A stretch of DNA of 64,000 nt from Paludibacteraceae bacterium (GTDB lineage Bacteria; Bacteroidota; Bacteroidia; Bacteroidales; Paludibacteraceae), in contig JAKSLA010000001.1 of assembly GCA_024401455.1 (NCBI GenBank), positions 44,262 to 108,261 on the forward strand, in the 5' to 3' direction. How positions within the stretch are numbered: position 1 is the stretch's first letter; every line of letters begins with the position of its first letter. The position numbers and the translations under genes were made by a program. Below, piece by piece: positions 5,125-64,000 of the stretch. The notes beneath the pieces were generated by a model. It was not told where the DNA came from, made no database searches, and saw only the letters and a list, made by a program, of their open reading frames with translations.

Positions 5125-6777
5125 TTACTCGCGAATGATTTCTATCCCCTCACCAAACACATCATCATCCACCTCTAAATCCTTGGATATCTTTACGGTT
5201 TTGAGGTTTTCACAATCGTCAAAAGCACCACACCAAATGTCCACATCCGAGCCAAGAATCGTGACACTTTCTAAGGAGGCACAATCAGAAAATGCACAAT
5301 TACCAATCTCCGTCACCGAGGCGGGGATGGTTACGCTCGTTAGGTTTTCGCAATCCGCAAATGCGTACGCCCCAATCTCCGTCACCGAGGCGGGGATGGT
5401 TACGCTCGTTAGTTCGCAACCACAAAATGCTCCTTCGCCTATTGCCGTCACCGAGTCGGGGATGGTCACGCTTATACATTGATCTATATCCCCTATCCAC
5501 CCATAGCATTGGGTGCCATTGGCATATATTAATAAACCAGGGATTTTGAGTTTTTCACCATGAATCGTGATACTATCTAAGCCACAATTAAAAAATGCAT
5601 GATATCCAATATAATCCATATCTGCAGGAATAACAATGTTCTTAAGTGATCTGCATCCAGAAAATGTAAAACGACTAATTTCAGTAAGCATATCAGGCAA
5701 TGAGACATCTTCCAAAGAACGACAATCTTCAAATGCATTCTCTTCTATTTTGACCACCGAGTTTGGAATAGAAAGACTCTTTAAAGAGAGACAACGATCA
5801 AATGCAAGTTCTCCAATTTCGAGCACTGAGTCAGGAATCGTAACGCTTTCAAGGGAAACACAATGGGAAAATGCCGCATCTCCAATGCGCTCCACGGAAT
5901 TTGGGATACTAATGCTTACAAGGGAGCGACAAGCCTTAAAAGTAAACGAATCTATCATCGTTATCGAATCAGGGATTGCGACCTTCATTAATGAAACACA
6001 ACCTTTAAACGCACCACGTTGTATCTCTGTCACCGAAGCGGGGATAGAAACACATTCAAGGGAACTACAACATTCAAATGCGCCTGCATCTATCACTGTC
6101 ACCGAGTCGGGGATGGTCACGCCCGTTAGGTTATCGCAACAAGAAAATGCGTCCTCGCCTATCACACTCACCGAATCAGGGATTATGACATCTATACACT
6201 TTGACTTATCCCCTACCCAGCCATAACATTTGGTACCGTTGGCATATAACAATAAACCAGGGGACAATGGACAACCACCAAATGCACTTTCCCCAATCTC
6301 CGACACCGAATCGGGGATGGTTACGCTCGTTAGGTTTTCGCATTCCTTAAATGCTCTTTTCCCAATCACCGTCACCTTATAAACCTTCCCTTCTATCTCC
6401 ATTGTGGATGGGATCTCTATGTTTGTCGCTTTTTTATCCGCGATTCCGACACAAACGCAACCTTCTCCTGATGGCAAAATTTCCACCTCCAGGGAGGCAG
6501 TTTTTTTCTCTGTATCAATTCCTTCCAATCCATGGACCATTTGAAAGAATTCTTCCTGCGGAACGATTCTAACACCCAGTTCCTGCGCCTTCGTGAGTTT
6601 CGTGGCTCCCACCTTGTCGCCCGTCACCAACATCGTGGTCTTCTTCGTCACGGACGAAACGCAGGTTGCACCATTACTTTCCACCAAGGAGGTCATCTCC
6701 TCTTGCGTGTAGCCTTCAAACTTACCGCTCACACATACGATTTCCCCTGCCAAGGGGGCTTTTGTCTGCTCACTCAT
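5125..6777 (-). CDS. BRCT domain fused to BspA-like leucine-rich repeats
   Basis: A 550-residue protein without signal peptide. Residues ~8-85 form a BRCT domain of the DNA-ligase type: GEIVCVSGKFEGYTQEEM, then TKKTTMLVTGD and KAQELGVRIVPQEEFFQMV. Residues ~125-545 consist of about 17 tandem LRR_5 (BspA-like) units with the consensus LTSVTIPDSVTEIGxxAFxxC, interrupted twice by the insertion GLLxYANGTxCYGWxGD (around residues 175 and 405). LRR_5 proteins are usually secreted or membrane-attached, whereas BRCT domains bind phosphoproteins or DNA ends inside cells; the absence of an export signal favours a cytoplasmic protein. The fusion is unusual and its role is unknown. A terminator for the transcript lies at 4766-4802. 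Confidence 0.85.
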   Translation of the reverse strand: MSEQTKAPLAGEIVCVSGKFEGYTQEEMTSLVESNGATCVSSVTKKTTMLVTGDKVGATKLTKAQELGVRIVPQEEFFQMVHGLEGIDTEKKTASLEVEILPSGEGCVCVGIADKKATNIEIPSTMEIEGKVYKVTVIGKRAFKECENLTSVTIPDSVSEIGESAFGGCPLSPGLLLYANGTKCYGWVGDKSKCIDVIIPDSVSVIGEDAFSCCDNLTGVTIPDSVTVIDAGAFECCSSLECVSIPASVTEIQRGAFKGCVSLMKVAIPDSITMIDSFTFKACRSLVSISIPNSVERIGDAAFSHCVSLESVTIPDSVLEIGELAFDRCLSLKSLSIPNSVVKIEENAFEDCRSLEDVSLPDMLTEISRFTFSGCRSLKNIVIPADMDYIGYHAFFNCGLDSITIHGEKLKIPGLLIYANGTQCYGWIGDIDQCISVTIPDSVTAIGEGAFCGCELTSVTIPASVTEIGAYAFADCENLTSVTIPASVTEIGNCAFSDCASLESVTILGSDVDIWCGAFDDCENLKTVKISKDLEVDDDVFGEGIEIIRE

Positions 6778-7068
6778 ATAGAATTAGTTTTTTGTAATTA
6801 ATATCAACCTTATTCTTGCCCAATCAATTATAACGGGGATTTCACAAATTAGAACCTAATAAGTGACTTTTTTCAGCAAAATGTTCGTTACTAACCTCTA
6901 TAAATTCACTTTACAGAATCGTTTAGGCAATTCTTATATACCAAAGGTCTAAAATTTTGTTTAAATTTAATTCAAAACTAATTTGAGAGATCTGAAAAAA
7001 CTCTCTAAAATACATTTAAATATTGATTATCAGTTTAATAAACGGATAAAAAATTCGTAACTTTTAAG
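6778..7068. other. Intergenic, AT-rich, no gene seen
   Basis: The interval separates the divergent BRCT-LRR gene and the transposase fragment. It is very AT-rich (6890-7060). No convincing TTTG/TAnnTTTG promoter or open frame was found; TAAGGTTG on the minus strand near 6812 is at best a weak -7 box for the BRCT-LRR gene. Confidence 0.4.
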
Positions 7069-7419
7069 GTGCCAATCAATAAAGGGATGAACAATTATCC
7101 AACAAATCTCACCGATAATCAGTGGCAAGTTATAGAAAAGTTTTTAGATGTGCAAGAGCGAAAGCGCAAGTACCCTCTCAGAAACATTGTAAACGCAATC
7201 AATTACCTTCTCAAAACAGGATGTCAGTGGAGGATGCTCCCAAAGGATTTCCCTCCTTACAACCTTGCTTATTACTATTTCTCCAAATGGAAGAACGAAG
7301 GTGTTTTTGAGGATTTGTTCATCAAACTACACATCTGGTTACGCATCATATTGGGACGAGAGGAGTGCGGAATCCGCAGTGGCTATGATTCAATTAGCCT
7401 TCTGTTTTCTGATGTTTAA
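7069..7419 (+). pseudogene. IS5-family transposase fragment (N-terminal DUF4096-like part)
   Basis: The frame opens with NYPTNLTDNQWQVIEKFLD, then YPLRNIVNAINYLLKTGCQW, RMLPKDFPPYNLAYYYFSKW and FEDLFIKLHIWLRIILGRE, the classic N-terminal half of IS5/IS1031-type transposases. It stops shortly after a region aligning with the first catalytic Asp (GYDSIS), so the rest of the DDE domain is missing. The likely start is the ATG at 7087; the GTG at 7069 is only an in-frame alternative. No terminal inverted repeats were identified. It is a dead remnant just upstream of purL. Confidence 0.75.
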
Positions 7420-7545
7420 CAAAATATTTTAGAAAAATTCAAACAGCTTCTAGGATTTTCTCGCCACAAAACAAGGAAGTCGACGCCCAAAATTTTCTTT
7501 CTTAACTCTCCCCACAAAAAATTACCCCATTTTAGATTTATTATT

Positions 7546-7553
7546 TATCTTTG
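7546..7553 (+). promoter_or_regulatory. -7 promoter element for purL
   Basis: TATCTTTG matches the Bacteroidetes -7 consensus TAnnTTTG and lies 73 bp before the purL start codon. A clear TTTG box ~20 bp upstream is not visible (the region reads TTTTAG), so the promoter call is moderate. Confidence 0.55.
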
Positions 7554-7626
7554 CAAAAGATAGATTGGGCTTGGCGTAAATATGCCCGTCCAAAGCAAAT
7601 CAGGAAATACTAATTAATCATACAAT

Positions 7627-10600
7627 ATGATTCTATTCTTCAAAAAAGAGGATGCAGGCATAATCGCAGTCGATTCAAAGTCTGCACTTAACGCTCAGGA
7701 CATCGAGAAGTTGACTTGGTTGTTCAGCGGAGCAAAATTCACAGAGGAAAAAGAGATTAATGGATGGTTTATCGGTCCGCGCCGCGAAATGATAACCCCA
7801 TGGAGTACTAACGCAGTCGAAATCACCCAAAACATGGGCTTGAACGGATTGCTAAGAATCGAGGAGTACTTTGCAGCCAAAGGTGCTGATTCAGAGCACG
7901 ATCCTATGCTTCAACGCATCTATCCGAAGTTGGACCAAAACATCTTCACGATAGACAAACAACCGGATGCCATCGTACACATCGAAGATATTGAAGAATA
8001 CAACAAGAAGGAAGGTTTGGCACTCAACCCTGACGAAATCGCTTACTTGAACGGCATCAGCGAGAAGATCGGCAGAAAGTTGACCGACAGCGAAGTGTTC
8101 GGTTTCTCTCAAGTAAACTCAGAGCACTGCCGCCACAAAATCTTCAACGGACTTTACGTCATCGACGGAAAAGAGATGGAGAGTTCCCTCTTCAAACTCA
8201 TCAAGAAGACATCAGAAACCAACCCTAACAAATTGGTTTCAGCATACAAGGACAACGTTGCCTTCAACGAAGGTCCTGAAATCGAACAATTTGCGCCTGC
8301 AAGCGGCGACAAACCAGATTTCTTCGAGGTGAAGAAGATCAAATCTGTCATCTCCCTAAAAGCAGAGACTCACAACTTCCCTACTACCGTAGAGCCATTC
8401 AACGGGGCTGCTACCGGTTCGGGTGGTGAAATCCGTGACCGCCTCGGCGGAGGTAAGGCCAGTTTGCCAATGGCAGGTACTGCCGTCTATATGACTTCTT
8501 ACCCACGCACAGCAGAAGGCCGCGAATGGGAGAACGGCATGGACGAGCGTAAGTGGTTGTATCAAACACCAGAGCAAATCTTGATCAAGGCTTCTAACGG
8601 TGCCAGCGATTTCGGTAACAAATACGGACAACCGCTCATCTGCGGTTCGCTCCTTACTTTTGAGCACGCAGAGAACTACAAGAAGTTCGCTTACGACAAG
8701 GTCATCATGCTTGCCGGTGGTATCGGTTTCGCCAAGATGAAGGACAGCCTTAAGGGCGAGCCTGTCCCTGGTCAAAAAGTAATCGTCATGGGTGGTGACA
8801 ACTACCGCATCGGTATGGGTGGTGGCGCCGTTTCTTCCGTAGACACGGGCCAATACAACAACGCCATCGAGTTGAACGCCGTTCAACGTGCCAACCCTGA
8901 AATGCAAAAGCGTGTTTCCAATGTCATCAGAACATTGGCAGAATCAGACAACAACCCAATCGTCTCTATCCACGACCACGGCGCTGGTGGCCACTTGAAC
9001 TGTCTATCAGAGTTGGTGGAGAGCACAGGTGGAAAGATCGACATGGACAAGTTGCCTGTTGGAGACCCTACCCTTTCAGCAAAGGAGATCATCGGTAACG
9101 AGAGCCAGGAGCGCATGGGCTGCCTTGTTAACGAGAAAGATATCGACCTTATCAAGAGAATCGCAGATCGTGAGCGTGCACCTATGTATGTTGTGGGTGA
9201 AACAACTGGCGACATGCGTTTCGTATTCGAGAAGGCCAACGGCGAAAAGCCAATCGACTTGCGACTCGATTATATGATCGGTAAGCCACCTCGCACGGTC
9301 ATCACCGACAAGACAGTCGTTGAGAAGTACGAAGATGTCAAGACTGATGCCAGCAAGTTGAACGAATATTTGAACAACGTGCTTCAATTGGAGTCTGTAG
9401 CCTGCAAAGACTGGTTGACCAACAAGGTGGACCGTTCTATTACAGGTAAGATTGCTAAACAACAATGCGCCGGAGAGATTCAACTTCCGTTGAACGATTT
9501 GGGTGCCGTTGCTTTAGACTACAGATATAAGTCTGGTATCGCCACTTCTATCGGTCACGCTCCGATGGCAGCCATGATCAACCCCGCAACAAGTTCTGTC
9601 CTTGCCATTGCAGAGGCTTTGACCAACATCGTTTGGGCACCTATGAAGGACGGCATCAGCAGCGTTTCTTTGAGTGCCAACTGGATGTGGCCATGCAAGA
9701 ACGAGGGCGAAGACGCTCGTCTATACAAAGCCGTTGAAGCATGTAGCAAATTCGCTTGTGCTTTGGGCGTAAACATTCCAACAGGAAAAGACTCCCTCTC
9801 CATGACACAAAAATATGGAGCAGACAAGGTATATTCTCCAGGAACGGTCATCATCTCAGCAGGCGGTGAAGTTTCTGACGTTCGCAAGATCGTAAGCCCA
9901 GTCATCGAGAAAAAGATAGGCACAAGCATTTACCACATCGACTTCTCATTTGACGAACTTCAATTGGGCGGTTCGGCTTTGGCTCAAACGCTCAACAAAA
10001 TCGGAGCGAAAGCGCCAACAGTCAAGAACACAGAATATTTCGTGGACGCATTTGAGGCAATCCAAACGCTCATCAACAAGGAACTCATCCTCGCCGGCCA
10101 CGACATCTCTGCCGGTGGTTTGATTACAGCCCTTCTTGAAATGTGCTTCGCCAACAAGACTTGCGGTTTGAAGGTTAACTTGGACGAAATTCCGGAGAAG
10201 AACTTAGTCAAGGTTCTCTTCAGCGAAAACCCAGGTGTTCTCATCCAAGTGGAGAAAGAGGCAGAAGTTGAGAAGATTTTGAAGAAAGAAGGCATCGGAT
10301 ATGCTAAGATTGCAACGGTTGTTGAAGAGAGAAGCATCGAACTCGACAAAGACGGCAAGCACTATTCATTCGACATCGACGCATTGCGTGATGTTTGGTT
10401 CCGTTCTTCTTACTTGTTGGATAGAAAGCAAAGTGGCGAGCAATGTGCAAAAGAGCGTTACGAGAACTACAAGAACCAACCTCTTCAATACAACTTCCAA
10501 AACTTCGCAGGCAAGCTTTCCAAGTTAGGCATTTCTGCAGACAGAAAAGAGAAGAGCGGCATCAAGGCTGCCATCATCCGTGACAAGGGAACGAACGGCG

Positions 10601-11708: not shown

Positions 11709-14700
11709 ATGAGAAACAAGCATTATCTCAGTTCGATTCATTTGTCCCAAGGACAAAAGACAGCAAAAAAAAGTTTCGTTAAGCTTTCAACATTGTTTGT
11801 CTCAACATTGATGTCCCTCTTCTCTGTAGGAGCAGAGGCACAAACAGTATCCGTTGACGGAAATTCAAACGTATCTGTATTTTCCAAAGACTATGATGAC
11901 TGTTCGACCATCCTCGAGGTTTCATTGTCACCATCCAACGAATACTATTTCGAGTTTGTCATCAAAGAAAACGGCGTGAAATTAAGTTCGAGCGACGTTT
12001 CTCTATTAGGCGACGCTTCAACATTCCGATTCAACGAAAACAACAATATCGTATTCAATTCCGGAGCCTATAGTGGTCCTTCGACTTTCTATCTGAACAC
12101 CAGAAACGGAAAGCCTTACCAATTCTCATCTGAGGCACCGTCTTTAAGCGAGGCATTCTTAAAAATCGACGGAAAAACAACTCTTTCCGAAGGTGAGAGC
12201 GTGACGTTGAAGGGAATTGCATGTCCAACTTCCACCTCATACACCTACCAATGGTATGAGAACGACAAGGCAATTGCAGGAGCGACTGACGCCGACCTTG
12301 CCAACCATACGCCAGAGACGCCATACTCTACCTTTAAATTAGAAATGAAGGAGGATGGCACTCTTGTGAAAAGTGCGACCACCAAAATTCGCACATTAGG
12401 TACCAAGCAAAGATTCAGCATCACCCCATGGTATGGGCTCGGCACCTACAAAGTAACGGAATTAGCAGGCTACTGCAATACCGTCTATATGGTTGAGATG
12501 ACATTCAACGGCAACGACCCTCAATTCACCATCAACGATATGAGATTGATCCTCGGTCCTAGCGACATTGACAACAACACATCCTTTTCAATGGCAGAGC
12601 AGAAGGGCGACACCGGCATTTCTGGTTGGAGAATCACGAACAAAGATGTGAACGGGAAAAGTGCAACCTTCTATATCGATGCAAGAACCACTCCTATAAG
12701 TTTGGTGGATAACATTGAAGACAAAGAATTTATCGCATCTTCCATCACTCAGACCAAAGGTTCGAACCAGATAGAAAGAGGAGAGGCAACGTCATTCAGT
12801 GCGGACGTTTGTGCAAACTCTTCTTCTGCAATCACTTACCAATGGCAAAGCAGTACAGACAACGGTAAGACTTGGGAGGACATCGAAGGGGCTACAAATA
12901 GCACATTGGAGGATTTCGTAGCAACAATAGATAGCACGAACATCAGAATCGTTGCCACAAGTGGTAGCATTTCCAGCAATTCCAACTCCATTCTATTGTA
13001 CTTTGAGCCTTCTAAAATCATCACTGAAATAGAATATGCTCAAAAAATCAACGACGTTGAATATGAGATTCCTTTCCACGATTCTGTCAAGTTGACGATT
13101 CTCACAGAACGAATCAAGGATCCCGTATTCTCTGTTCAGGTAAAAGATTTCTCTTCCTCAACATGGAGAGACACCGTATTGGGAACTGGCGACATTTGGA
13201 CATTCGAGCCTAAAGAAAACTTTGTTTACAAAGTTCAAGCAACAGGTATTCTCAACACGACAAATGAGATAGGCACTATTTCCAGTGAATTCATCATTCG
13301 CGTCATCCACCGTTGCGACGAGAGCGCAACTACCGACACTTTGTGGTTTGACGACTTCGGCCACTTTGGCGATGCGAACACTTACATCACTAAAGATGTG
13401 GATGGTGTCGAGCAAACTCACACTACATCCATCACGGACGAAGGCGGCAACGAGTGCGAAATCAGCAACTACATGGCCGCAGACCCTAACTTCTTCGTCA
13501 AACGACACGAATTCGCCTCTTTGAACCCTCTATTCGGTCCTTTCGGCGGCGATTGCGGCGCGGACAATTACAAACACTATGCTTGTTGGGAAGGTTGTAA
13601 TGGTATTCGTGTTGAAGATGGATACTACGCCATCTTGACCAATCCGAACATCAGTAACTGCGGTATGTCAGACCGCGACTATTGGGACGGAGTTGACCAC
13701 ACCGGCAACAAAAACGGTGGTATGCTTTTCGTAAACTGTAGCGATGACAGTAAGAACACCATCATCTACGAACGCGAACTTACGCTAAGTAATGATTGCG
13801 ACAACGTACAACTTTTGTTCTCTGCATATATCAGTAATGCATCTATCAAAGAGGGACAAAAACCGGTAAACGTTCGTTTGGATATCCGAGACGAGGACTC
13901 TACGCTTGTTCACTCCGTTGCTTCTGGAGATGTAATGCCTCGCAACTCGGGCGAGAGATGGTCGAACATGACCTTCCAATTCAAGTCAACCGGTAAGAAA
14001 AAGTACATCATCCAATTGACTAACAACAATGAAGGTGGTTCGGAGAACTATGGTAACGATATCTTGTTGGACGACATCTCCATCACCATCTGCTATCCTA
14101 ACGTAAACCTCATCACCGACCTCGCGAACAAATCAAAGGATACGGTTGAGACTTGCCAATTGGACACGACGATCAACTTGTACGCATTCAACGAGAATGG
14201 AATCGAGAATTACATCGACGAGCCAGTTTACCTCTTCCAATACAAGAAGGTTGACGAACTTGGCACTCAATGGAAAGATATCGAGACTGTGGGCGAAGGC
14301 ATTCACTTCTCAAGCGAAGACCACACAAGCATCAAGTTGGACAGCACTGACAATCGTTTCTTCGGCACAACAAAATTCAGAGCTATCGTTGCTTCCAGCA
14401 AGGAGATTTTGACTGATGTCATTCAAGAAGAAAACGAAAACGGCCGCATCATCACACCCGTTGACTGTGACCACGTTTATGCAATAGACTCTGCATTCGT
14501 CATAATTTTCCATTACAGCGGTCCTATGGGCCCTGCAATCGATACGGCTGGTTGTATTGGCGAGACCATGACCATTAAGGGTTTTGCGTCAGACAAGCCT
14601 GAATTCAAATGGGTAGATGCAGAGACAGACACGCTTATCTCTGAAAACAGCAAAGAGTTGACATTCCTCATCGACGGCAAGAAAGATGACTACTACTTCT

Positions 14701-17700
14701 GGTTTGTCGGCACAGAAAAGATGGGTTGTACAGACACTCAAAAAGTTCATGTCAGAAAGAAGGAGTTCGTCTGGTTTGATGCTCCAGAGGAGTTCATCGT
14801 CTGTGAATTCGATTCGGCATTGTCATTGACTAATGTCGTTCTTAAGAATTCAACCGCTACTCCTTCATTCACTTGGGAGTTGAACGGTACTGTCGATACA
14901 GAGCAAACCAGCAGCAAATTCAAAATCCCAGCCTCAGCGCCTTTGCAAGGAACCATCAAAGTGACGGGTTCTGCCGATGGCTTCTGTGATTCGACAAGAA
15001 CAATCAAGTATATCATCCACCAAAAGTACAGTTTGGCATTGGACACAGATGTTGAAGACGATATGTTATGCTTCAACTCCAACAACAACAAAATCACATT
15101 GACGGCAGTTGTTAGTCCGGCTACGGCTTTGCCAAGCAAGTTCTATTGGTACAACAACGGTGTATATGTAGGAGAAAGCAGCGAACCAACTTATAAAATC
15201 GAGATCACTGAGAACGGCAAGTATAAGTTCATAGTGAAATCGACAGATGACGTCTGCTACAAAGACTCAGCCGATGGACCAGTGGACACCGACACCATCT
15301 CGGCCAGCCGAACACTTGACATGACCATTACTACAAGTCCTGAAAACGCCATCATCTGCGAGGGCGAGAGCATTGCTGTCAACCTTGAAATTGGCAACGC
15401 ATTGGACGACAAGGTGGTCACTTGGGAATCAGAAGATTTGGAAGGCGGCAAGACCACAACTACGACGGCAACCTTCAAGAGCGGCATTACATTAACACCA
15501 ACCAAGAGCACAAAATTCACAGACAAACGAGTTTTGAAAGTTTCTGTCGTTGATGATATATGTAACAAGCCTATCACCGCCGACGTCAACTACGAGGTTC
15601 ATAACAACATTGAATTGAGCATTGACCCTATCAACACATTCTGCTTGAGCGACGGCGACAAGATAGCACTCAACGCAACTGTAGCGGCCGGAGAGCCTAC
15701 AAAATATGTTTGGTTGGAAGGTTCAACGAGATTGGACTCAACCGACACAAACAAGGCAAACTTGACCATCAAGGAGGGCACTAACAAATACTCAGTAATC
15801 GCCAGCGACGGTGTCTGCGAGAATAAAACTTCTGAAGTGATGACGACAGAGGCTCGCTTGCCAATCTCTATCGACATTGAGCCAAAGGATTCTGTATTCT
15901 GCGAAGGCACAACCATCACCTTCCGTGCTACGGTAAAGAACGCTTTGGACAAGATCAATGTGCCAGTTCTTTGGAGCGGAGATGACCTTGCCAAGGATTC
16001 AACTATCAAGGGCGAGAATTGCCAATTGGCAATCAAGCCTGTAAAGAGCAACAAAACGACAGAAAAGCGTTCGATCACCATCAGCACAGCCGATGATGTT
16101 TGTAGTGCAAGCGCACCAGTAAAGGCAACGACAGAATACACCATCCACAACAAGATGGATATTGCTATTCTTGCCGACAGAACAGACGGTCTCTTCTGTT
16201 TGACAAACGAAGAAGACAACAACATCAACTTGAAGGTTGATGTCAAAGCAGGTGAACCTACAAAGTACAATTGGTATAAAGACGATCAGGCATTAGGTTC
16301 ATCAACGAAGAAAGACACGACACTTGCAATCGGCGTAGGAACGAACCAATACAAAGTCATCGCAAGCGACGGCGTTTGTGCGGACACCAACTCTGTTGTA
16401 GTGCCTATCAAGGCAAGACACCAATTGGGATTGGATTTGAATCCTAAAAACGAAAACATCTGTGAGGGCGAGAGCATAAAACTCATAGCAACCGTAACCG
16501 ACCCATTGAATGAGGCAACAACAATCCTTTGGGAAGGCGATGACATTGCTGTTGGTTCCAAGACCATCGGAAGTCCTTCTTCTTATACAGTCAAGACGAC
16601 AAAGAGTGGAAAGACAATGCAAACTGCCTACGCAACTATCAAAGCAAACGATGCTGTTTGTCAACGCGATACGGTAGTTTCGGTCAACTACAATGTCTAT
16701 ATGAAGGTGAACATCGAATTGCTTTCTAACATTCCAAACAGCAAGATTTGTATGAATAACCCTTCAAACAGTGTGGCAACCTTGACAATCAATGTGAAGA
16801 AGGGTAATCCGAACCAATTCATCTGGAATGATGGAAGCATCGGAACCAGAAAAGACACGGTAAGAACGATCTCTTTGGAGGAAGGAACCAACACGTTCTC
16901 GGTAAGAGCAACGGATGATGTCTGCAACAAGATTGACGTTTCCGAGGCAACCGCCAACAACTCCATCGAAACAAGAGAGCCTGTTCAAGTTGACTTGTTC
17001 TTGGATCACAGTTTAGTCTGCATTGGCAACAAGATTAAGGCAACCGCCGATATCCGCAACACCCATCCAAGCTCTTCATCAATCATCCAATGGTCTAACG
17101 GAAATAGTAAAAGCAATGCTGCCAACGGACAATACTCGGAGACATACAAGCCATCCGTTGGTTCTCAAAGCATCTACGTCAACGTAGCAGATGCCAACTC
17201 AAGCATTTGCCCAGCCACAGAGGTCTCTGCAGTCATCTCTGCTCAAGATTCTCTCCGCTTGTACATCTCTCCAGACAAAGCAACTCTTTGTCAAAGAGAG
17301 GATACTGCTCAATACGTCAAGTTGACGGTAGGCATCAAATCTGGTTGGCCAAGTACAGTCATTTGGTCAACAGGGGATACGACAAGAATCGACACGACCA
17401 ACACGACTCATATTCTTGTGGCTCCTCACGAGGACGTTACCTACTGGGCTTATGGAACAGACGATGTCTGTAAAAATTCTGACAAGATCTACACCAAGGA
17501 GATCAAGGTTTCCAACAAACTAAAAGTTGAGTTGGAGATTGAAAAGCCAGAATTCCAAATGGGCGAAGAGGTTGTCTTGAAAGCAATCCTATCCAACAAC
17601 GAATACAATTCAATCCGCTGGTATAACACAGAGACTGGCGAATTGTTAGGTGAAACATCCGACAATGAGTTCCGCTATCAACTTGACGAAGATACTTACG

Positions 17701-18038
17701 GAACCTTTAAGCTTGGCGTCGTCGTTGACAACATGTACTGTGGCGACATCGAATCCGGAAAGAGAAAGATTACGGTGGCCGACTACACGGTTATCCCTAA
17801 TATCATCACTCCTTACAATGACAACGGAAAGAACGATGTATTCATGGGACCAAAGGACGGCAAACCAGGTTACCGCGTCGAGATCTACAACCGTTACCAA
17901 CAAATGGTATTTGAAGGTGACAATGGTTGGGATGGCATCTACAGAGGTCATTTGGCAGAGCCTGGCACCTACTTCTACAGAATATTCATGAAGGACGGAC
18001 GCGTATTCAAGGGTACACTTGAAGTTGCTAAATTCTAA
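11709..18038 (+). CDS. Giant secreted T9SS cargo with Ig-like repeats and type B (CHU_C/gliding-motility) C-terminal sorting domain
   Basis: A 2109-residue protein. A long basic N-terminus is followed by a signal peptide core (LSTLFVSTLMSLFSVGAEAQ, cleavage after ~residue 45). The central part is built of Ig/PKD-like domains with paired cysteines; a lectin-like MAM-type segment sits around residues 540-800. Residues ~1080-1900 are alternating repeats of two types: one with GEPTKYxW...GTNxYxVIASDGVC, the other with CEGExIxLxATVxxxL...LWEGDD. The last ~85 residues (VIPNIITPYNDNGKNDVF ... VEIYNRYQQMVFEG ... GWDGIYRG ... GTYFYRIF) are the type B sorting domain that directs passage through the type IX secretion system. 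OmpA-like and PorP/SprF-like genes follow at 35 and 17 bp, the usual partners. A surface adhesin role is inferred. Confidence 0.92.
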   Translation: MRNKHYLSSIHLSQGQKTAKKSFVKLSTLFVSTLMSLFSVGAEAQTVSVDGNSNVSVFSKDYDDCSTILEVSLSPSNEYYFEFVIKENGVKLSSSDVSLLGDASTFRFNENNNIVFNSGAYSGPSTFYLNTRNGKPYQFSSEAPSLSEAFLKIDGKTTLSEGESVTLKGIACPTSTSYTYQWYENDKAIAGATDADLANHTPETPYSTFKLEMKEDGTLVKSATTKIRTLGTKQRFSITPWYGLGTYKVTELAGYCNTVYMVEMTFNGNDPQFTINDMRLILGPSDIDNNTSFSMAEQKGDTGISGWRITNKDVNGKSATFYIDARTTPISLVDNIEDKEFIASSITQTKGSNQIERGEATSFSADVCANSSSAITYQWQSSTDNGKTWEDIEGATNSTLEDFVATIDSTNIRIVATSGSISSNSNSILLYFEPSKIITEIEYAQKINDVEYEIPFHDSVKLTILTERIKDPVFSVQVKDFSSSTWRDTVLGTGDIWTFEPKENFVYKVQATGILNTTNEIGTISSEFIIRVIHRCDESATTDTLWFDDFGHFGDANTYITKDVDGVEQTHTTSITDEGGNECEISNYMAADPNFFVKRHEFASLNPLFGPFGGDCGADNYKHYACWEGCNGIRVEDGYYAILTNPNISNCGMSDRDYWDGVDHTGNKNGGMLFVNCSDDSKNTIIYERELTLSNDCDNVQLLFSAYISNASIKEGQKPVNVRLDIRDEDSTLVHSVASGDVMPRNSGERWSNMTFQFKSTGKKKYIIQLTNNNEGGSENYGNDILLDDISITICYPNVNLITDLANKSKDTVETCQLDTTINLYAFNENGIENYIDEPVYLFQYKKVDELGTQWKDIETVGEGIHFSSEDHTSIKLDSTDNRFFGTTKFRAIVASSKEILTDVIQEENENGRIITPVDCDHVYAIDSAFVIIFHYSGPMGPAIDTAGCIGETMTIKGFASDKPEFKWVDAETDTLISENSKELTFLIDGKKDDYYFWFVGTEKMGCTDTQKVHVRKKEFVWFDAPEEFIVCEFDSALSLTNVVLKNSTATPSFTWELNGTVDTEQTSSKFKIPASAPLQGTIKVTGSADGFCDSTRTIKYIIHQKYSLALDTDVEDDMLCFNSNNNKITLTAVVSPATALPSKFYWYNNGVYVGESSEPTYKIEITENGKYKFIVKSTDDVCYKDSADGPVDTDTISASRTLDMTITTSPENAIICEGESIAVNLEIGNALDDKVVTWESEDLEGGKTTTTTATFKSGITLTPTKSTKFTDKRVLKVSVVDDICNKPITADVNYEVHNNIELSIDPINTFCLSDGDKIALNATVAAGEPTKYVWLEGSTRLDSTDTNKANLTIKEGTNKYSVIASDGVCENKTSEVMTTEARLPISIDIEPKDSVFCEGTTITFRATVKNALDKINVPVLWSGDDLAKDSTIKGENCQLAIKPVKSNKTTEKRSITISTADDVCSASAPVKATTEYTIHNKMDIAILADRTDGLFCLTNEEDNNINLKVDVKAGEPTKYNWYKDDQALGSSTKKDTTLAIGVGTNQYKVIASDGVCADTNSVVVPIKARHQLGLDLNPKNENICEGESIKLIATVTDPLNEATTILWEGDDIAVGSKTIGSPSSYTVKTTKSGKTMQTAYATIKANDAVCQRDTVVSVNYNVYMKVNIELLSNIPNSKICMNNPSNSVATLTINVKKGNPNQFIWNDGSIGTRKDTVRTISLEEGTNTFSVRATDDVCNKIDVSEATANNSIETREPVQVDLFLDHSLVCIGNKIKATADIRNTHPSSSSIIQWSNGNSKSNAANGQYSETYKPSVGSQSIYVNVADANSSICPATEVSAVISAQDSLRLYISPDKATLCQREDTAQYVKLTVGIKSGWPSTVIWSTGDTTRIDTTNTTHILVAPHEDVTYWAYGTDDVCKNSDKIYTKEIKVSNKLKVELEIEKPEFQMGEEVVLKAILSNNEYNSIRWYNTETGELLGETSDNEFRYQLDEDTYGTFKLGVVVDNMYCGDIESGKRKITVADYTVIPNIITPYNDNGKNDVFMGPKDGKPGYRVEIYNRYQQMVFEGDNGWDGIYRGHLAEPGTYFYRIFMKDGRVFKGTLEVAKF

Positions 18039-18073
18039 GAAAGTAAAAAAGAATCCATGTAAATAAAAAGCAC

Positions 18074-19366
18074 ATGAGAAAGTTAATTTATATCGTGATG
18101 ATGATAGCACTGGTACACAATATCAGTGCCGCCGAAGACAAATTCAGCGAAGGAAAGTACGAGTTCATATCATCCAACAAGAACACAAAGGCAGAAGAGT
18201 GCCCGATGTCCCCTTACATGAAGGGCTCAACCGTATTCTTCAGAAACGATACTGCCTACATGTTTTATCCGAGAATGGATTTGGAGTTGGACACTCCTAT
18301 CGTCTGCCACGAATTGATGGGTTTAGAGATTCAAGGCACATTCGCATACGACAAGAACGCGAACAAGATCTATTTCTCAAAAAATGACGGAGCCGGCAAT
18401 GCCGAGTTGTATGAGGCGAGTTATATGGGTGAGAGATGGACGGATATAAAGAAATTGAAAATAAAGGGTGTAATGCCAAGCAAAGCAGTCATCAAAGGTT
18501 CATCACTTGCTGCCGGCCGTTGGAACCATACGGTAAAAGGAACAACTGGTTTCTTCAACCCATCGTTAGGAAGAGGCGGTAGAAGAATCTACTTCTCAGG
18601 TACGTTCTTAGCAGGAAAAGGAAACAGAGACCTTTGGTACATCGACTATGACGGAGACGATTTATGGAGCCGTCCGAAAAGCATCGGTGACTCCATCAAC
18701 ACGGCAGGCAAAGAGGATTTTGCTTATGTGGTAGGTGATACTGCCCTCTACTTCGCATCAACAAGAGAAGGCGGTTTTGGTGACATGGACATCTGGGTTT
18801 CCCACAAAGGACGCAAAGATACAACTTGGGGGGCACCTGTAAACTTAGGAGACCACATCAACTCATCAGCGGCCGACTATAACGTGGCCTTCAACAAGGT
18901 ATCAGCATACTTCATCTCCAACAGAGCAAGCGGCAAAGGCAAAGCCGACATTTACCGTCCTATTTGGATTAACCCTGCAAGAGAGAAGGAGTTGATGGCT
19001 CACAGCACGTTAGAGGAGCCTAAGGGATTCAATTGGGTGCTCTTCTTCTTCGACTTCAACATGACATCCATGAAGCCTGAATACGAGGCTCAATTGGACG
19101 AGTTGCTTTCTGCCATGAAGGAGTTCCCCGACGGAAAATTCGAGATCAGCGGACATACCGACTCCCGTGGTTCTGCCGAGTACAACTTGAAACTTTCACA
19201 AAAACGTGCAGAGTACATCAAAGACCTGTTGGTTAAGAAAGGCATAGACCCATCAAACTTAGTTGCCGTAGGCCGTGGTATGACGGAGCCTGTTATTCCT
19301 GATGCTCAAGAAGAGGCTGAGCACGAGCAGAACAGACGTGTGGACATCAAGATTATTAACGAATAA
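18074..19366 (+). CDS. OmpA-family lipoprotein-like protein with PD40 beta-propeller, T9SS-associated
   Basis: A 430-residue exported protein (signal peptide in residues 1-20, MRKLIYIVMMIALVHNISAA). Residues ~50-310 contain PD40/WD40-like propeller blades (GRRIYFSGTFLAGKGNRDLW, TALYFASTREGGFGDMDIWV). Residues ~320-430 form an OmpA C-terminal peptidoglycan-binding domain: FDFNMTSMKPEYEAQLDEL, ISGHTDSRGSAEYNLKLSQK and NRRVDIKI, with the Asp and Arg that bind diaminopimelate. The domain order resembles PorE and related proteins that anchor T9SS or gliding components to peptidoglycan. It sits between the giant cargo and the PorP/SprF homologue, so it probably tethers that export module to the cell wall. 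Confidence 0.9.
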   Translation: MRKLIYIVMMIALVHNISAAEDKFSEGKYEFISSNKNTKAEECPMSPYMKGSTVFFRNDTAYMFYPRMDLELDTPIVCHELMGLEIQGTFAYDKNANKIYFSKNDGAGNAELYEASYMGERWTDIKKLKIKGVMPSKAVIKGSSLAAGRWNHTVKGTTGFFNPSLGRGGRRIYFSGTFLAGKGNRDLWYIDYDGDDLWSRPKSIGDSINTAGKEDFAYVVGDTALYFASTREGGFGDMDIWVSHKGRKDTTWGAPVNLGDHINSSAADYNVAFNKVSAYFISNRASGKGKADIYRPIWINPAREKELMAHSTLEEPKGFNWVLFFFDFNMTSMKPEYEAQLDELLSAMKEFPDGKFEISGHTDSRGSAEYNLKLSQKRAEYIKDLLVKKGIDPSNLVAVGRGMTEPVIPDAQEEAEHEQNRRVDIKIINE

Positions 19367-19383
19367 TTAGAGGAGACTGCATA

Positions 19384-20307
19384 ATGAAAAAAGTATTGGC
19401 ACTCATTTGCCTAATGATGACTGGTGTTGCCGCTCAAGCGCAACAAGATTTGCTTTTGTCTCAACAATTCTATTCCCGTATCAACAAAAACCCTGCGGGA
19501 ACTGGTAACGTACCCGACTACGATTTCTTCTTGTTGGGCCACTACCAATATATCGATGTAAAAGATGCTCCTAAGTCGCTCGTATTCAATGCTCAAACAT
19601 TTATGGAGCAATACAACTCCGGAGTCGGCTTCTCTTTGTCGTATGACAATATGGGTGTTGCCAAAAGCACTACAAATGCAAAACTCGTTTACGCCTACAG
19701 CATGAAATTGAACGAGACGGCCCTACTCTCTTTCGGTTTGTCAGCCGGCGTTCAATACGGCTATTTCAACGCAGCCGAGTACACCTACGAGGATTATTCC
19801 GAGGTGGAGGACGGTGAAGCACCCGCAGAAAAGGAGACGAAACTCAATCCGGACTTTGACTTCGGTCTTGAATTTTCAACACCAAGATTCTTGCTCGGTA
19901 TGTCTATTACCCACTTGACAAATAACGAGTCAAGCACATTGACGGCAGGACGCCACTTTTATGCTTATGGACGCTATATGTTCACTTTGAACGAGACTTG
20001 GGACATCGCTCCTGCCCTCGTATATATGCACAAAGATTTGATTGATGTGACAGAGTTGAGTGCAACGGCATTTTACAACCGCTTTATCTGGGGAGGCCTT
20101 ACTTACCACCCAGACATCAACCAAAGTTTCGAGACTAACCCTTTAGCCATCACATTGGGCGTAGAATACAGATCATTCCGTATCGGCTACACATTTGACT
20201 ACGCCTTTGGTAAGGTATCTCGCCTCTCAGGCTCTTCTCACGAGTTGATGTTCTCTTACTCTATGGAGAACAAGAAGAAGTCTGCTGTTTACGAGAAATT
20301 CGAATAA
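19384..20307 (+). CDS. PorP/SprF-family T9SS outer-membrane protein
   Basis: A 307-residue beta-barrel with a signal peptide (MKKVLALICLMMTGVAAQAQ). The start of the mature protein, QDLLLSQQFYSRINKNPAGTG, is the family hallmark (xxxSQxxxxxxxxNPAxxG), and the rest has alternating barrel strands with GVEYRSFRIGYTFDYAFGK near the end. SprF helps secrete the SprB adhesin in Flavobacterium, and PorP/SprF homologues are commonly encoded beside cargo with type B sorting domains, acting as a cargo-specific partner. Here the pairing with the 2109-residue cargo is direct. A strong terminator follows. Confidence 0.93.
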   Translation: MKKVLALICLMMTGVAAQAQQDLLLSQQFYSRINKNPAGTGNVPDYDFFLLGHYQYIDVKDAPKSLVFNAQTFMEQYNSGVGFSLSYDNMGVAKSTTNAKLVYAYSMKLNETALLSFGLSAGVQYGYFNAAEYTYEDYSEVEDGEAPAEKETKLNPDFDFGLEFSTPRFLLGMSITHLTNNESSTLTAGRHFYAYGRYMFTLNETWDIAPALVYMHKDLIDVTELSATAFYNRFIWGGLTYHPDINQSFETNPLAITLGVEYRSFRIGYTFDYAFGKVSRLSGSSHELMFSYSMENKKKSAVYEKFE

Positions 20308-22403: not shown

Positions 22404-22660
22404 TTTTAAAAATAATGAGTCAATCAATCCGTCACTCCACAAGGCAATGTCGCCACTTTATGGGAATATCTGGAGAGGCCCTATGCATAGAAATGCCATA
22501 TCGTCACATATATAGTACAAGCAACATTCCCAAGGCATCCGAAACAAGAAATATGGTTATCCATTAAACAGCACTAAAAATCAAATTTGACATTTACATA
22601 ACATTCAGGAAATAGTTCATATTTCGATTATAATTTCCAAGTAAACTTCCCCCTTTCCAA
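22404..22660. other. Intergenic, no gene seen
   Basis: Between the small acidic protein gene and the first sRNA regulatory region. No open frame of interest, clear terminator or promoter was found. Confidence 0.4.
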
Positions 22661-22672
22661 CGACGTTTTCAC

Positions 22673-22692
22673 TGAACATTTCACTGAACATT
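22673..22692 (+). promoter_or_regulatory. Paired direct repeats upstream of sRNA copy A
   Basis: TGAACATT at 22673-22680 and 22685-22692 (12-bp period). The second repeat starts 73 bp before the -7 box, the same geometry as in copies B and C. Hexamers with 12-bp period resemble binding sites of OmpR/PhoB-type response regulators. Confidence 0.55.
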
Positions 22693-22770
22693 TTGCAAAA
22701 AAAGTTAGATGCGAACCATTTCGGTAGGAATGTGAATTAAAATGGCGAAGGAAGAGATAACTTTGTATCA

Positions 22771-22904
22771 AAGAAAAGAACAAAGGACAACTGCAAAAGT
22801 TGGTTGGTCACTATAGGTATAAATGTTTTTATAAGATAGCCGTTAGGGCTATCTGAGAGTAAAGGAGGCAATGTCTGTAAAGACAAAGTCTCCTTCTTCT
22901 TTTA
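22771..22904 (+). ncRNA. Small RNA, tandem family copy A
   Basis: Promoter: GTGAATT (22732-22738), 19 bp, TAACTTTG (22758-22765). The predicted RNA starts near 22771. It has a 5' hairpin CAACT/AGTTG (22788-22792/22798-22802), the shared core GGTCACTAT (22806-22814) and TATAAATG (22818-22825), a second hairpin AGATAGCC/GGCTATCT (22834-22841/22847-22854), and a terminator hairpin AAGGAG...CTCCTT (22862-22895) ending in a pyrimidine-rich tail. No open frame is present. Same architecture as copies B and C, with different stem sequences that keep base pairing. Confidence 0.8.
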
Positions 22905-23033
22905 TAGGCATTTCACGCCATATTGAGGTCGTTTCAAGCACGAAAACAAAAAAGTCCCATATAGAGTCTTTCCCGATGCTTTACAAACAAACTATAATCG
23001 TTTGCCTTTCCGCCCAAAATCGAAGGAGAAGAA

Positions 23034-23053
23034 TGAACATTTGATTGAACATT
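23034..23053 (+). promoter_or_regulatory. Paired direct repeats upstream of sRNA copy B
   Basis: TGAACATT at 23034-23041 and 23046-23053 (12-bp period), 74 bp before the -7 box of copy B. Confidence 0.55.
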
Positions 23054-23132
23054 TTATAGAAAAACGACGGATGCTAATCCTTTCTCACTTTATGTGAAAC
23101 TAAAAAAACTTCTTTCACATAATTTTGTATCA

Positions 23133-23263
23133 AAGAAAAGAATAAAGGACAACGGCTAAGTTGTTGGTCACTATAAAGTATAAATGTCATTATGGAAATC
23201 CCATTGAATTCTATCTGAAGAAGAAGGGGGCGTGCTCAAAAGGCAACGTCCCCTTCTTCTTTG
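23133..23263 (+). ncRNA. Small RNA, tandem family copy B
   Basis: Promoter: GTGAAAC (23094-23100), 19 bp, TAATTTTG (23120-23127). Predicted start ~23133. 5' hairpin CAAC/GTTG (23150-23153/23160-23163), core GGTCACTAT (23166-23174) and TATAAATG, weak second hairpin ATGG/CCAT near 23192-23204, and a very strong terminator GAAGAAGGGG...CCCCTTCTTC (23217-23260) followed by TTT. The first 20 nt of the RNA are nearly identical to copy A. Confidence 0.8.
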
Positions 23264-23297
23264 CCGCGATGTTTGCTCCAGGGTGGGAAAGGCACCA

Positions 23298-23322
23298 GGC
23301 GGGCACAAGGCACCGCCCCTAC
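23298..23322. repeat. 25-bp dispersed repeat, copy 1
   Basis: The 25 bp here (core GGGCACAAGGCACCGCCCC) are identical to 44387-44411. The core can fold as GGGCGGTGCC-type hairpin. Found in intergenic DNA in both places. Confidence 0.7.
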
Positions 23323-23396
23323 GCATCCGTTTCTTGTTCGCATTTTTCTATTTTTTGTCAAAAGTGTCTTTCTTCGATGAAAAGGGCAAAAATCAC

Positions 23397-23416
23397 TTAA
23401 CATCAGGCTTAACATT
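23397..23416 (+). promoter_or_regulatory. Paired direct repeats upstream of sRNA copy C
   Basis: TTAACAT at 23397-23403 and TTAACATT at 23409-23416 (12-bp period), 73 bp before the -7 box of copy C. This version is identical in hexamer to the TTAACA half-sites of PhoP-type response-regulator boxes. Confidence 0.55.
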
Positions 23417-23494
23417 AATCCAAATCAAGTCTATGTTAAGCATTCATCTAAAGATGTGAATTATGGGCACGAAAGATTTCATAGTTTTGCAATG

Positions 23495-23641
23495 AAAGAA
23501 GAACGATGGTATAATCGTTGTTCGGTCACTATTCAAATATAAGTGTTTTATGGTTCAAACATCTATCGGAAATCGATCTAATTAACCCAAACCTAAACAA
23601 GGATCTATTTAAGGGGGGCCGATGGTCCCCTTTTTCTTTTC
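23495..23641 (+). ncRNA. Small RNA, tandem family copy C
   Basis: Promoter: GTGAATT (23456-23462), 19 bp, TAGTTTTG (23482-23489). Predicted start ~23495. 5' hairpin AACGAT/ATCGTT (23502-23507/23514-23519), core GGTCACTAT (23524-23532) and TATAAGTG, second hairpin ATCG/CGAT (~23563-23576), terminator AAGGGG/CCCCTT (23611-23632) and a T-rich tail. The 5' stem shares no sequence with copies A and B but pairs perfectly. It ends ~45 bp before the promoter of the AraC-type gene. Confidence 0.75.
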
Positions 23642-23718: not shown

Positions 23719-24825
23719 ATGTCAACTAATAAAACACTATATATCATACTCATATCATTACCTATCGCTATCGTTGCGATAGCCTACTGCATCATGAGAA
23801 AGCCCACCATTAACGTTCTGGACGATGAAGTGTACCAGTTGGAGATGTGGGACCTTCCTATGGCAAAAGGATTGGCTACGACCAACCTCACTTGTCATGA
23901 TAAGGGCGTAACATTTAACTTCACGCTTTCCGACCAAATTCCCCAACCTTACGCAGGGCTCAGCGTGGCCAACAAGCAATCGGCGCTTTTCTCCCTACTC
24001 GATTACGAAATCATATTGAAAGTCCACAGCGAAGAGAATGTACCGCTCATTTTCCGTGTCAACAAATTCATAAAGGACTATACCCAAGAAGGGCAATGGG
24101 ACACTTACCTACTCTGTTCCAAGACCGAGAGCGTAACCAAAGGCGAAAACACAATCACGTTGAAGACCAAAGACATCAACGAAACGCCGAATTGGTGGTA
24201 TGCCATCAATAAGGCATGGGAGAAAAAAGCGGAAAAGCACGCAGAAAAAGCAGACGTCAACGAACTGACGCTCATATTTGAAAACGGATGTCCTGTCGGC
24301 AAAGAGATTTCCATAGACATACAAGAGTTCAAACTCGTCTATGATTCTTGGGGATTTCTCAAGTACATGTGGATAGTCATCCTCTACTACATTGCATTAG
24401 CCACATTCATCTTCATTCAAAAGATAAAGAAAAAGAACGAAGTCAAATATGTCGTCGTTCCGATCAAGGAGACTGAAAAGCAAGCCGCCCAAACGGCGAC
24501 ACAAGATGTGGACATCGTATCCTTCATCGGCGAGAACTACCCGAATCCGGACTTTAAAGTGAGTGATGTGGCCAACCACTTCAAACTGACAGAAAACGAA
24601 GTTTCGGACATTCTAAAGGCTTATTGCGACAAATCGTTCCGTCAATACCTCAACCAGATTCGTATGGAAGAGGCAAAGCGTCTATTGAAAGACAGCAAGC
24701 AACAAATTTCGAGCATCGCCTTCTCCGTTGGCTACAACAACGTGCAACACTTCAACCGCGTGTTCAAAGAATATACAGGCGTATCCCCTACCGTATTCAA
24801 GAGTGAAGACAAAGGATGCGAATAA
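23719..24825 (+). CDS. Membrane-spanning AraC-type transcriptional regulator with periplasmic sensor domain
   Basis: From the ATG at 23719 the protein has 368 residues. Residues ~6-26 are a transmembrane helix, ~30-225 an extracytoplasmic all-beta-looking domain of unknown ligand, ~226-250 a second membrane helix (MWIVILYYIALATFIFIQ), and ~285-365 a cytoplasmic AraC HTH domain with both helix-turn-helix units: FKVSDVANHFKLTENEVSD and ISSIAFSVGYNNVQHFNRVF. It is therefore a one-component sensor that couples a periplasmic signal to DNA binding, without histidine kinase or receiver domains. It is encoded directly after the three small RNA genes and before a small repeat protein, both of which are candidate targets. 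The longer upstream frame is rejected because it crosses sRNA copy C. Confidence 0.85.
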   Translation: MSTNKTLYIILISLPIAIVAIAYCIMRKPTINVLDDEVYQLEMWDLPMAKGLATTNLTCHDKGVTFNFTLSDQIPQPYAGLSVANKQSALFSLLDYEIILKVHSEENVPLIFRVNKFIKDYTQEGQWDTYLLCSKTESVTKGENTITLKTKDINETPNWWYAINKAWEKKAEKHAEKADVNELTLIFENGCPVGKEISIDIQEFKLVYDSWGFLKYMWIVILYYIALATFIFIQKIKKKNEVKYVVVPIKETEKQAAQTATQDVDIVSFIGENYPNPDFKVSDVANHFKLTENEVSDILKAYCDKSFRQYLNQIRMEEAKRLLKDSKQQISSIAFSVGYNNVQHFNRVFKEYTGVSPTVFKSEDKGCE

Positions 24826-63430: not shown

Positions 63431-64000
63431 TTAGAACGGCAACATACCTTCATCATCATCTTTCTTGCTATCGTATTTACTTATCAGTTGAGATCTATTA
63501 GTTAGATTTGGGCAGTCGTCGAAGGCGCTTGCGTCAATCTTCTCAACAGAGTCGGGAATGGAGATTTCAACCAAAGATGTACAACCCTTGAAGGCTTCAC
63601 TTTCTATCTCCTTTATTCCTTCTGGAATAGTCACATTTACCAGATTTTTGCAACCCTTGAACGTAGATGAACATATCCGTCCTAAACTACTTGGCAATAC
63701 AACATCTTCAAGGCTAATACATCCCTTGAACACACTATTGTCAAACCACCCGAATTCTACACCCTCTGGAATTCTAATGCTTTTCAGTCTCTCACAGCCC
63801 TTGAAGGCCTCAACTCGTATCTCTTTTACTCCCTTTGGAATGGTCACATTTACCAAACTTGAGCAACCCTCGAAGGCCTGAAATCCAATCTCTTTTATTC
63901 CTTCTGGAATAGTCACATTTACCAGACTTTTGCAACCCTTGAACATAGATGAACATATCCGTCCTAAACTACTTGGCAATACAACATCTTCAAGGCTAAT
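63431..64000 (-). CDS. BspA-like leucine-rich-repeat protein, C-terminal part (5' end outside window)
   Basis: The frame stays open to the window edge (ISLEDVVLPSSLGRICSS at 64000-63947), so the internal alternative start at 63979 is not the true one. About 190 residues with eight LRR_5 units are visible. A 94-residue super-repeat (282 bp) is present: the 40 bp from 63679 and from 63961 are identical, giving SLEDVVLPSSLGRICSSxFK twice. The chain ends in a charged tail (SKYDSKKDDDEGMLPF) without membrane anchor. Confidence 0.85.
   Translation of the reverse strand: MSLEDVVLPSSLGRICSSMFKGCKSLVNVTIPEGIKEIGFQAFEGCSSLVNVTIPKGVKEIRVEAFKGCERLKSIRIPEGVEFGWFDNSVFKGCISLEDVVLPSSLGRICSSTFKGCKNLVNVTIPEGIKEIESEAFKGCTSLVEISIPDSVEKIDASAFDDCPNLTNRSQLISKYDSKKDDDEGMLPF

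Follow-up and report, generated by a model that had tools for sequence, protein, structure and literature searches.

The 64,000-nt window analysed here, a stretch from the genome of an uncultured gut or rumen member of the Paludibacteraceae, carries three tandem non-coding units, u1, u2 and u3, which by their sequence are small-RNA genes with a common promoter layout, 5' stem, core and terminator. They belong to a family, called U below, whose products probably act as decoy (sponge) RNAs for a second family of small RNAs, S, which would in turn pair with the 5' leaders of cellulase mRNAs and most likely repress them. The first-pass annotation of the window had regarded the units as an apparently undescribed trans-acting small-RNA family, and this reading can be extended to an apparently undescribed genus-level decoy family that would oppose an older, cellulase-linked small-RNA family.

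The tandem arrangement and the shared layout of the three units were confirmed, with all of them on the + strand and the cores beginning at 22806, 23166 and 23524. Unit u1, a candidate decoy RNA of type A, was assigned to positions 22766–22903 from its sequence and folding. Its promoter (22732–22765, motif table) consists of GTGAA (22732–22736), a spacer of 21 nt and TAACTTTG (22758–22765), and a direct repeat TGAACATTT-N3-TGAACATTT identified upstream by a pattern search (22673–22693) may provide activator half-sites. The 5' stem CAACT/AGTTG (22788–22802, by script) is followed by the core GGTCACTAT (22806–22814), by GTATAAATGTTT (22817–22828), which is an exact copy of a 12-nt mRNA site, and by a hairpin at about 22835–22853 and a terminator at about 22862–22903, both predicted by folding. 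Unit u2, also a type A candidate decoy assigned from sequence and folding (23128–23262), has the same direct repeat TGAACATTT-N3-TGAACATTT upstream (23034–23054, pattern search), a promoter of GTGAA, N21 and TAATTTTG (23094–23127, motif table), the stem GACAAC/GTTGTT (23148–23165), the core (23166–23174), GTATAAATG (23178–23186) and terminator arms predicted at 23218–23233 and 23246–23261. Unit u3, a candidate decoy of type B (23490–23640, sequence and folding), is preceded by the direct repeat TTAACATCAGGCTTAACA (23397–23414, pattern search) and a promoter of GTGAA, N21 and TAGTTTTG (23456–23489, motif table), and comprises a stem (23501–23523), the core GGTCACTATTCAAATATAAGTG (23524–23545), a stretch nearly invariant in the type B alignment (about 23546–23593) and a terminator at about 23611–23640. 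A GC-rich dispersed repeat beginning with GGCACCAGGCGGGCACAAGGCACCGCCCCTACG was noticed after the u2 terminator (23278–23326), with 44 further matches in the same genome, and the space separating u2 from u3 is overlapped by two short reading frames, one of 79 aa (TTG start) and one of 75 aa (GTG start).

The minimum free energies of u1, u2 and u3 corresponded to z-scores of -4.26, -5.38 and -2.19, respectively (200 dinucleotide shuffles each), and an intrinsic terminator, as had been proposed for each unit, was borne out by folding. The proposed second hairpin turned out to be strong in u1 only, the folds at this place in u2 and u3 looking non-homologous. The promoter motif pair described at first was found again with a corrected spacing, N21 instead of N19, and the arrangement GTGNA-N21-TAnnTTTG was present in 10/10 U genes, with GTGAA as the 5' element in eight and GTGTA in two. 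The compensatory changes noted in the 5' stems proved real; the stem pairs, according to a script, in all ten members, in the versions CAACT/AGTTG, GACAAC/GTTGTT, GACAACG/CGTTGTT, CAACG/CGTTG, GACGAT/ATCGTC and GAACGATGGT/ATCGTTGTTC. For all ten sequences aligned over their full length, the consensus predicted by RNAalifold was weak (-1.66 kcal/mol, nine pairs, two of them with double changes), and because the stems are out of register in that alignment, the stem evidence is taken from the per-sequence table.

Homologues of the units, which had been anticipated, were detected in all four genomes of one uncultured Paludibacteraceae genus, where family U comprises ten members (three, two, two and three per genome) of two types, A (to which u1 and u2 belong) and B (to which u3 belongs). 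All four genomes are draft assemblies: the genome containing the window (G000) is a 3.27-Mb draft, 90.3% complete with 5.28% contamination, and the three congeners (G001–G003) are MAGs, with yak rumen, water buffalo reticulum and horse faeces as sources. In the 3.27 Mb of G000, the core pattern GGTCACTATN{3,8}TATAARTG gave four matches, three of which were u1–u3, against none for the reversed control. Across the genus it gave 15 sites, namely the ten U genes and five S genes read antisense, and it was absent from 57 other relatives searched, 33 of them from the same family. A search for the exact type-A pattern in one genome per species (84,980 species) returned eight stretches, six of them from the three congeners; the other two, outside the genus, lay inside long coding frames without a unit and were rejected as chance, and so was a single IMG/VR match in which no recognisable unit could be seen by eye. 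The claim that this structured RNA family is apparently undescribed agreed with the Rfam run, in which no small-RNA family was found at the gathering score for the window, the U loci or the S loci. The matches of U and S in Rfam were weak and sub-threshold, and the two considered were discarded: Spy1186876, the best one for the window at a permissive E-value (E 0.002, 26.1 bits, cut-off 208), which was a long gapped alignment, and BTnc231 for S (E 0.22, 20.2 bits, cut-off 80.4). A small peptide starting from an ATG or GTG after the core was also rejected, the frames differing between type A copies; in the extra type B copy of G003, a one-base insertion was seen by eye in the frame after the core.

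In all four genomes, the main U locus is flanked by a gene for an AraC-type regulator downstream and a PorP/SprF gene (type IX secretion) upstream, the latter directly adjoining the locus in G001 and G002 and separated from it by a few genes in G000 and G003. In the window, the AraC-family gene occupies 23719–24825 on the + strand, with the start taken as the ATG at 23719 (in the frame list it begins within u3, at TTG 23518), and its product has two hydrophobic, probably membrane, segments as judged by eye. After the AraC gene, a TonB receptor gene and the cellulase gene GH9b were found in G001, and the frame order was the same in G002, in which GH9b was confirmed by a family search. Further upstream in the window (11709–20307), type IX secretion-related genes were observed, with OmpA and PorP/SprF recognised by Pfam and a 2109-aa protein whose C-terminus looked gliding-type on visual inspection.

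The repeat T(T/G)AACAT..T(T/G)AACA was detected upstream of nine of the ten U genes, and a variant of it upstream of the tenth; common control of the U genes is likely. A single further match to the pattern in the window lies at 63940. The AraC-type protein may be named as the candidate regulator of U, which is a guess from its position. Of 12 S-bearing genomes outside the genus, one, G062, had its N-terminal half, and no U gene could be recognised next to it there. The location of u3 directly upstream of the AraC gene, together with the terminator at its end, would also suit a role of u1–u3 as 5' leaders or attenuators of that gene. We regard this explanation as very unlikely, as every unit shows its own promoter motif and terminator and a further promoter motif, TATATTTG, separates the AraC gene from the terminator of u3. 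The extra type B copy of G003 is placed on another contig, near its end, with the downstream gene out of view, and so favours neither reading.

The fourth match to the core pattern in G000 lay outside the window and hence beyond the view of the first-pass annotation, on another contig and the other strand, in a small RNA of family S with its own promoter motif and terminator. The S genes of this genome, apparently undescribed, form an array, S1–S4, on contig C43 (positions 6586–7852, minus strand, of the extracted locus L013). In all four genomes of the genus, S1–S4 stand in line upstream of an rlmL-like gene, a call based on Pfam domains and falling below the NCBIfam cut-off, and the far side of the array is occupied by queA in G000 and G001, by an ATP-grasp gene in G002 and by the contig end in G003, the last genome having one further S3-like copy. 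U and S genes were located on different contigs in 4/4 genomes, that is, not as cis-antisense pairs. The sequence ATTTCGTTCTCAG is shared by S1–S3, and AAACATTNNNACTTT is common to S1–S4. In S1 and S4 the complement of the U core is present as AAACATTTATACTTTAAATAGTGRCC, and their seed, 5'-AAACAUUUAUACUU-3', is complementary to the site in the cellulase leaders. In the minimum free energy structure of S1, a 5' hairpin is followed by the unpaired seed; in that of S4, part of the seed is weakly paired. Inspection by eye revealed repeated GAAAC elements (TGAAACAWTTTT / GAAACG) in the S1 and S3 promoters, unlike the TGAACATT half-sites of U, so that a different regulator is likely.

The distribution of S was assessed with a model (R1) built on sequence only because RNAalifold gave no pairs on S. 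Of 300 Paludibacteraceae genomes, sampled evenly from a larger set and screened with strict filters that lose weak matches, 24 gave a match, and these fell into 6 of 33 genera: four in this genus, 16 in genus g27, one each in g5 (E 1.9e-13) and g4 (E 1.3e-6), and two weak ones in G108 and G235, which were set aside as doubtful, one being without the core (by script) and the other looking like coding sequence by eye. The S sequences examined from g27, g5 and g4 have kept GGAAACATTTATACTTTA, one g27 locus having been missed by the script. The S family, apparently undescribed and present in several Paludibacteraceae genera, seems to be older than U. The S core TCAGGAAACATTTATACTT had no matches in IMG/VR. 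A diverged S-like RNA (R1 E 8.8e-5), which has an altered seed and contains a GATTTCGTTCTCA block, was noticed on contig C23 of G001.

Sites complementary to the seed were searched for in the four genomes of the genus and proved to be rare. The sequence GTATAAATGTTT had 20 exact sites, against four for the reversed control, of which eight belonged to S1/S4 genes, two to U genes and ten to 5' leaders of genes: GH9a (four), GH9b (two), SMP-30/gluconolactonase-like (three) and aldo-keto reductase (one). The site was present in the GH9a leader of 4/4 genomes and in the GH9b leader of both genomes in which this gene was seen. The 14-mer AAGTAYWAATGTTT had 19 sites against four in the reversed control, and with one mismatch allowed 33 against 23, weaker sites therefore being indistinguishable from noise. 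In genus g27 (16 genomes), AAGTATAAATGTTT was found at 30 sites against one in the control, 21 in S genes (one of these, labelled 'other' by the script, was counted through an overlapping S match, G126:C56:13821-13907) and nine in leaders. The latter preceded three genes for GH5 cellulases, five for LTD-CotH-type secreted proteins (CotH was found in four of these, the fifth locus being cut short) and one for GH9. Searches with the seed versions of S2 and S3 turned up no exact 14-nt target other than the S2/S3 genes themselves.

All 19 leader sites, from both genera, were in the sense orientation and began 15–51 nt before the predicted start, forming islands of identity within diverged leaders. 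By a rough estimate, about 2–3% of random sense positions would fall this near a start, so chance is very unlikely even with orthologues counted once. The GH9a site includes an ATG, which is in frame in G001 and G002, where the GH9a start could therefore lie within the site, and out of frame in G000 and G003, where coding thus does not explain it. In the U genes, the 12-nt site was exact in u1 and in the type A copy of G001 and mismatched in the other members; relative to the 14-nt site, u1 had one mismatch, and u2 and u3 two each. Such a short, AT-rich motif might be a DNA element, for instance a protein-binding site, and not an RNA site at all, an explanation that we can hardly credit: the motif lies downstream of the predicted promoter in both U and S, its sense relative to the gene is fixed in 19/19 leaders, and the 5' stem of U covaries.

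Because the U core has the sense of the leader sites and is complementary to S, S is its likeliest partner, and since the leaders share the sense of U, the core enables U to pair with S and not with those mRNAs. Hence, of the trans-acting small-RNA family first proposed, the paralogous structured family was retained and the conventional mRNA regulator acting through its core was not. U is complementary to the seed of a trans-encoded small RNA and shares its sense with the mRNA sites to which that RNA is complementary, so that on paper it would match the sponge class of RNAs. Pairing between U and S is symmetric, which would also suit the reverse assignment of U as the regulator and S as its sponge. 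That assignment is very unlikely, both because the shared sense of U and the leaders leaves S alone able to pair with the latter and because S is present in genera in which the exact U core was not found.

Duplex energies were in agreement with a decoy role of U directed at S1 and S4. Across the ten U RNAs, z-scores ranged from -3.6 to -7.3 with S1 and from -1.8 to -5.1 with S4, and were no lower than -1.6 with S2/S3. Throughout this test, the S4 RNAs of G000 and G003 lacked 16 nt at their 5' ends. S4 combined with the GH9a and GH9b leaders gave z-scores of -2.4 to -4.2 in 6/6 cases, against -0.8 or higher for the GH9c and GH9d control leaders (seven of eight scored, GH9d of G003 missing). The values for S1 and the leaders were mostly unremarkable (GH9a -0.8, -2.5, -2.2 and +1.1; GH9b -1.1 and -1.4), so this test favours S4 only. 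Similarly low values were obtained for S3 with GH9a of G001 (-2.7) and S2 with GH9b of G002 (-2.6), S2 and S3 being the two RNAs unpaired with U. The complementarity of U to S1/S4 additionally includes ATAGTGRCC and the S terminator arm; as the predicted pairing thus reaches GGTCACTAT and this arm beyond the mRNA site, U should be an effective competitor.

A covariance model built from U only was run over 29 chosen, partly overlapping loci (229 kb), which included the places that the model then found, and returned 30 rows at E <= 1. The first were the ten U genes, followed by the antisense of S1 and S4 in all four genomes (8/8, E 1e-4 to 0.024) and finally by 12 weak rows (E 0.07–0.52), ten of which corresponded to leader sites (eight places) and two to antisense S in two other genera. 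The S model in turn detected one place in the window, the antisense strand of u2 at 23164–23207, with a weak score (11.1 bits, E 0.015). Antisense alignments exceeded all 200 shuffles for S1 in nine and for S4 in eight of the ten U members. When S1 is read as its reverse complement, type A members align with it along the U-tail, the GGCT-loop terminator hairpin and on to the core, an indication that U originated by inverted copying of an S gene.

An alignment of this kind would also be expected if U RNAs were conventional trans-acting regulators with mRNA targets of their own, contacted through the core or the type B stretch, and the complementarity to S were a relic of the inverted duplication. 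The type B members lend this some weight, since about 48 nt after the core are nearly invariant, exceeding the promoter, stem and terminator in conservation, and are left unexplained by the decoy model, S giving no explanation for them. We nevertheless consider this reading unlikely, because the core is conserved while the loops, tails and terminators of U diverge, and its full antisense was found, in the four genomes, only in S and U genes.

In the decoy model, the seed of S1/S4 would pair with the site in the cellulase 5' leaders, just upstream of the start codon, and most likely repress translation initiation, by analogy with FopS in Bacteroides. U would be transcribed from its own promoters with TGAACATT/TTAACAT half-sites, to which the neighbouring AraC-type protein may bind, and would pair more extensively with S1/S4, freeing the cellulase mRNAs, with the several U copies setting the dose. 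As a tentative further step, which we put at somewhat less than probable, these elements may form a three-layer circuit of fibre digestion, in which the older S checks cellulases and an inverted, duplicated S, namely U, placed under separate control, lifts the check.

If true, a small RNA and its decoy would set cellulase output in uncultured fibre degraders of the rumen and hindgut, at a level of control invisible to ordinary annotation, and U would illustrate how a sponge can originate from the reverse complement of the very small RNA that it titrates. It would also be, to our knowledge, the first dedicated sponge gene family for a small RNA in Bacteroidota. The birth of the sponge by inverted duplication might be traceable between sister genera. 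The model provides exact, testable base pairs and a list of targets, comprising GH9, GH5, LTD-CotH-type, SMP-30-like and aldo-keto reductase genes. Searches of the open-licence literature returned no work joining Paludibacteraceae with small RNA, or Bacteroidota with small RNA, sponge and base-pairing, and no such system was described in the titles and abstract openings retrieved on RNA sponges in Bacteroides or on small RNAs, cellulase and the rumen.

The enterobacterial sponges SroC and AgvB titrate a small RNA, as is proposed for U, and the examples known to us derive from other transcripts or prophage regions, whereas U would be a dedicated multicopy gene family. A report on Caulobacter crescentus describes CrfA, a trans-encoded RNA found among Hfq-associated RNA pairs, linked to carbon starvation and reported, with experimental support, to inactivate four sibling small RNAs, SisA-D (PMC12559287). 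By this account, CrfA and U are alike in being trans-encoded and facing four sibling small RNAs, of which U fits two (S1 and S4); unlike CrfA, U has several copies, resembles a small-RNA gene that has been copied in inverted form and is known from sequence alone. On the side of S, a report on B. thetaiotaomicron describes FopS, multicopy small RNAs that pair near the starts of susC and some glycoside hydrolase mRNAs, with repression shown for susC, and states that FopS has been deposited in Rfam; it also describes GibS, whose targets are translation initiation regions, including that of the mRNA for a glucan-branching enzyme (PMC11697453). GibS, with its two seeds R1 and R2, and FopS were set beside S by description. 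The layout of the FopS/GibS family, an unstructured 5' seed stretch followed by the terminator, differs from that of U, with a 5' stem in 10/10 members, and from that of S1, with its 5' hairpin. S resembles FopS in its proposed function and in a mostly single-stranded seed before the terminator, and the two differ in the antagonist, which for FopS is described as the protein RbpB (PMC11697453) and for S would be an RNA decoy, U.
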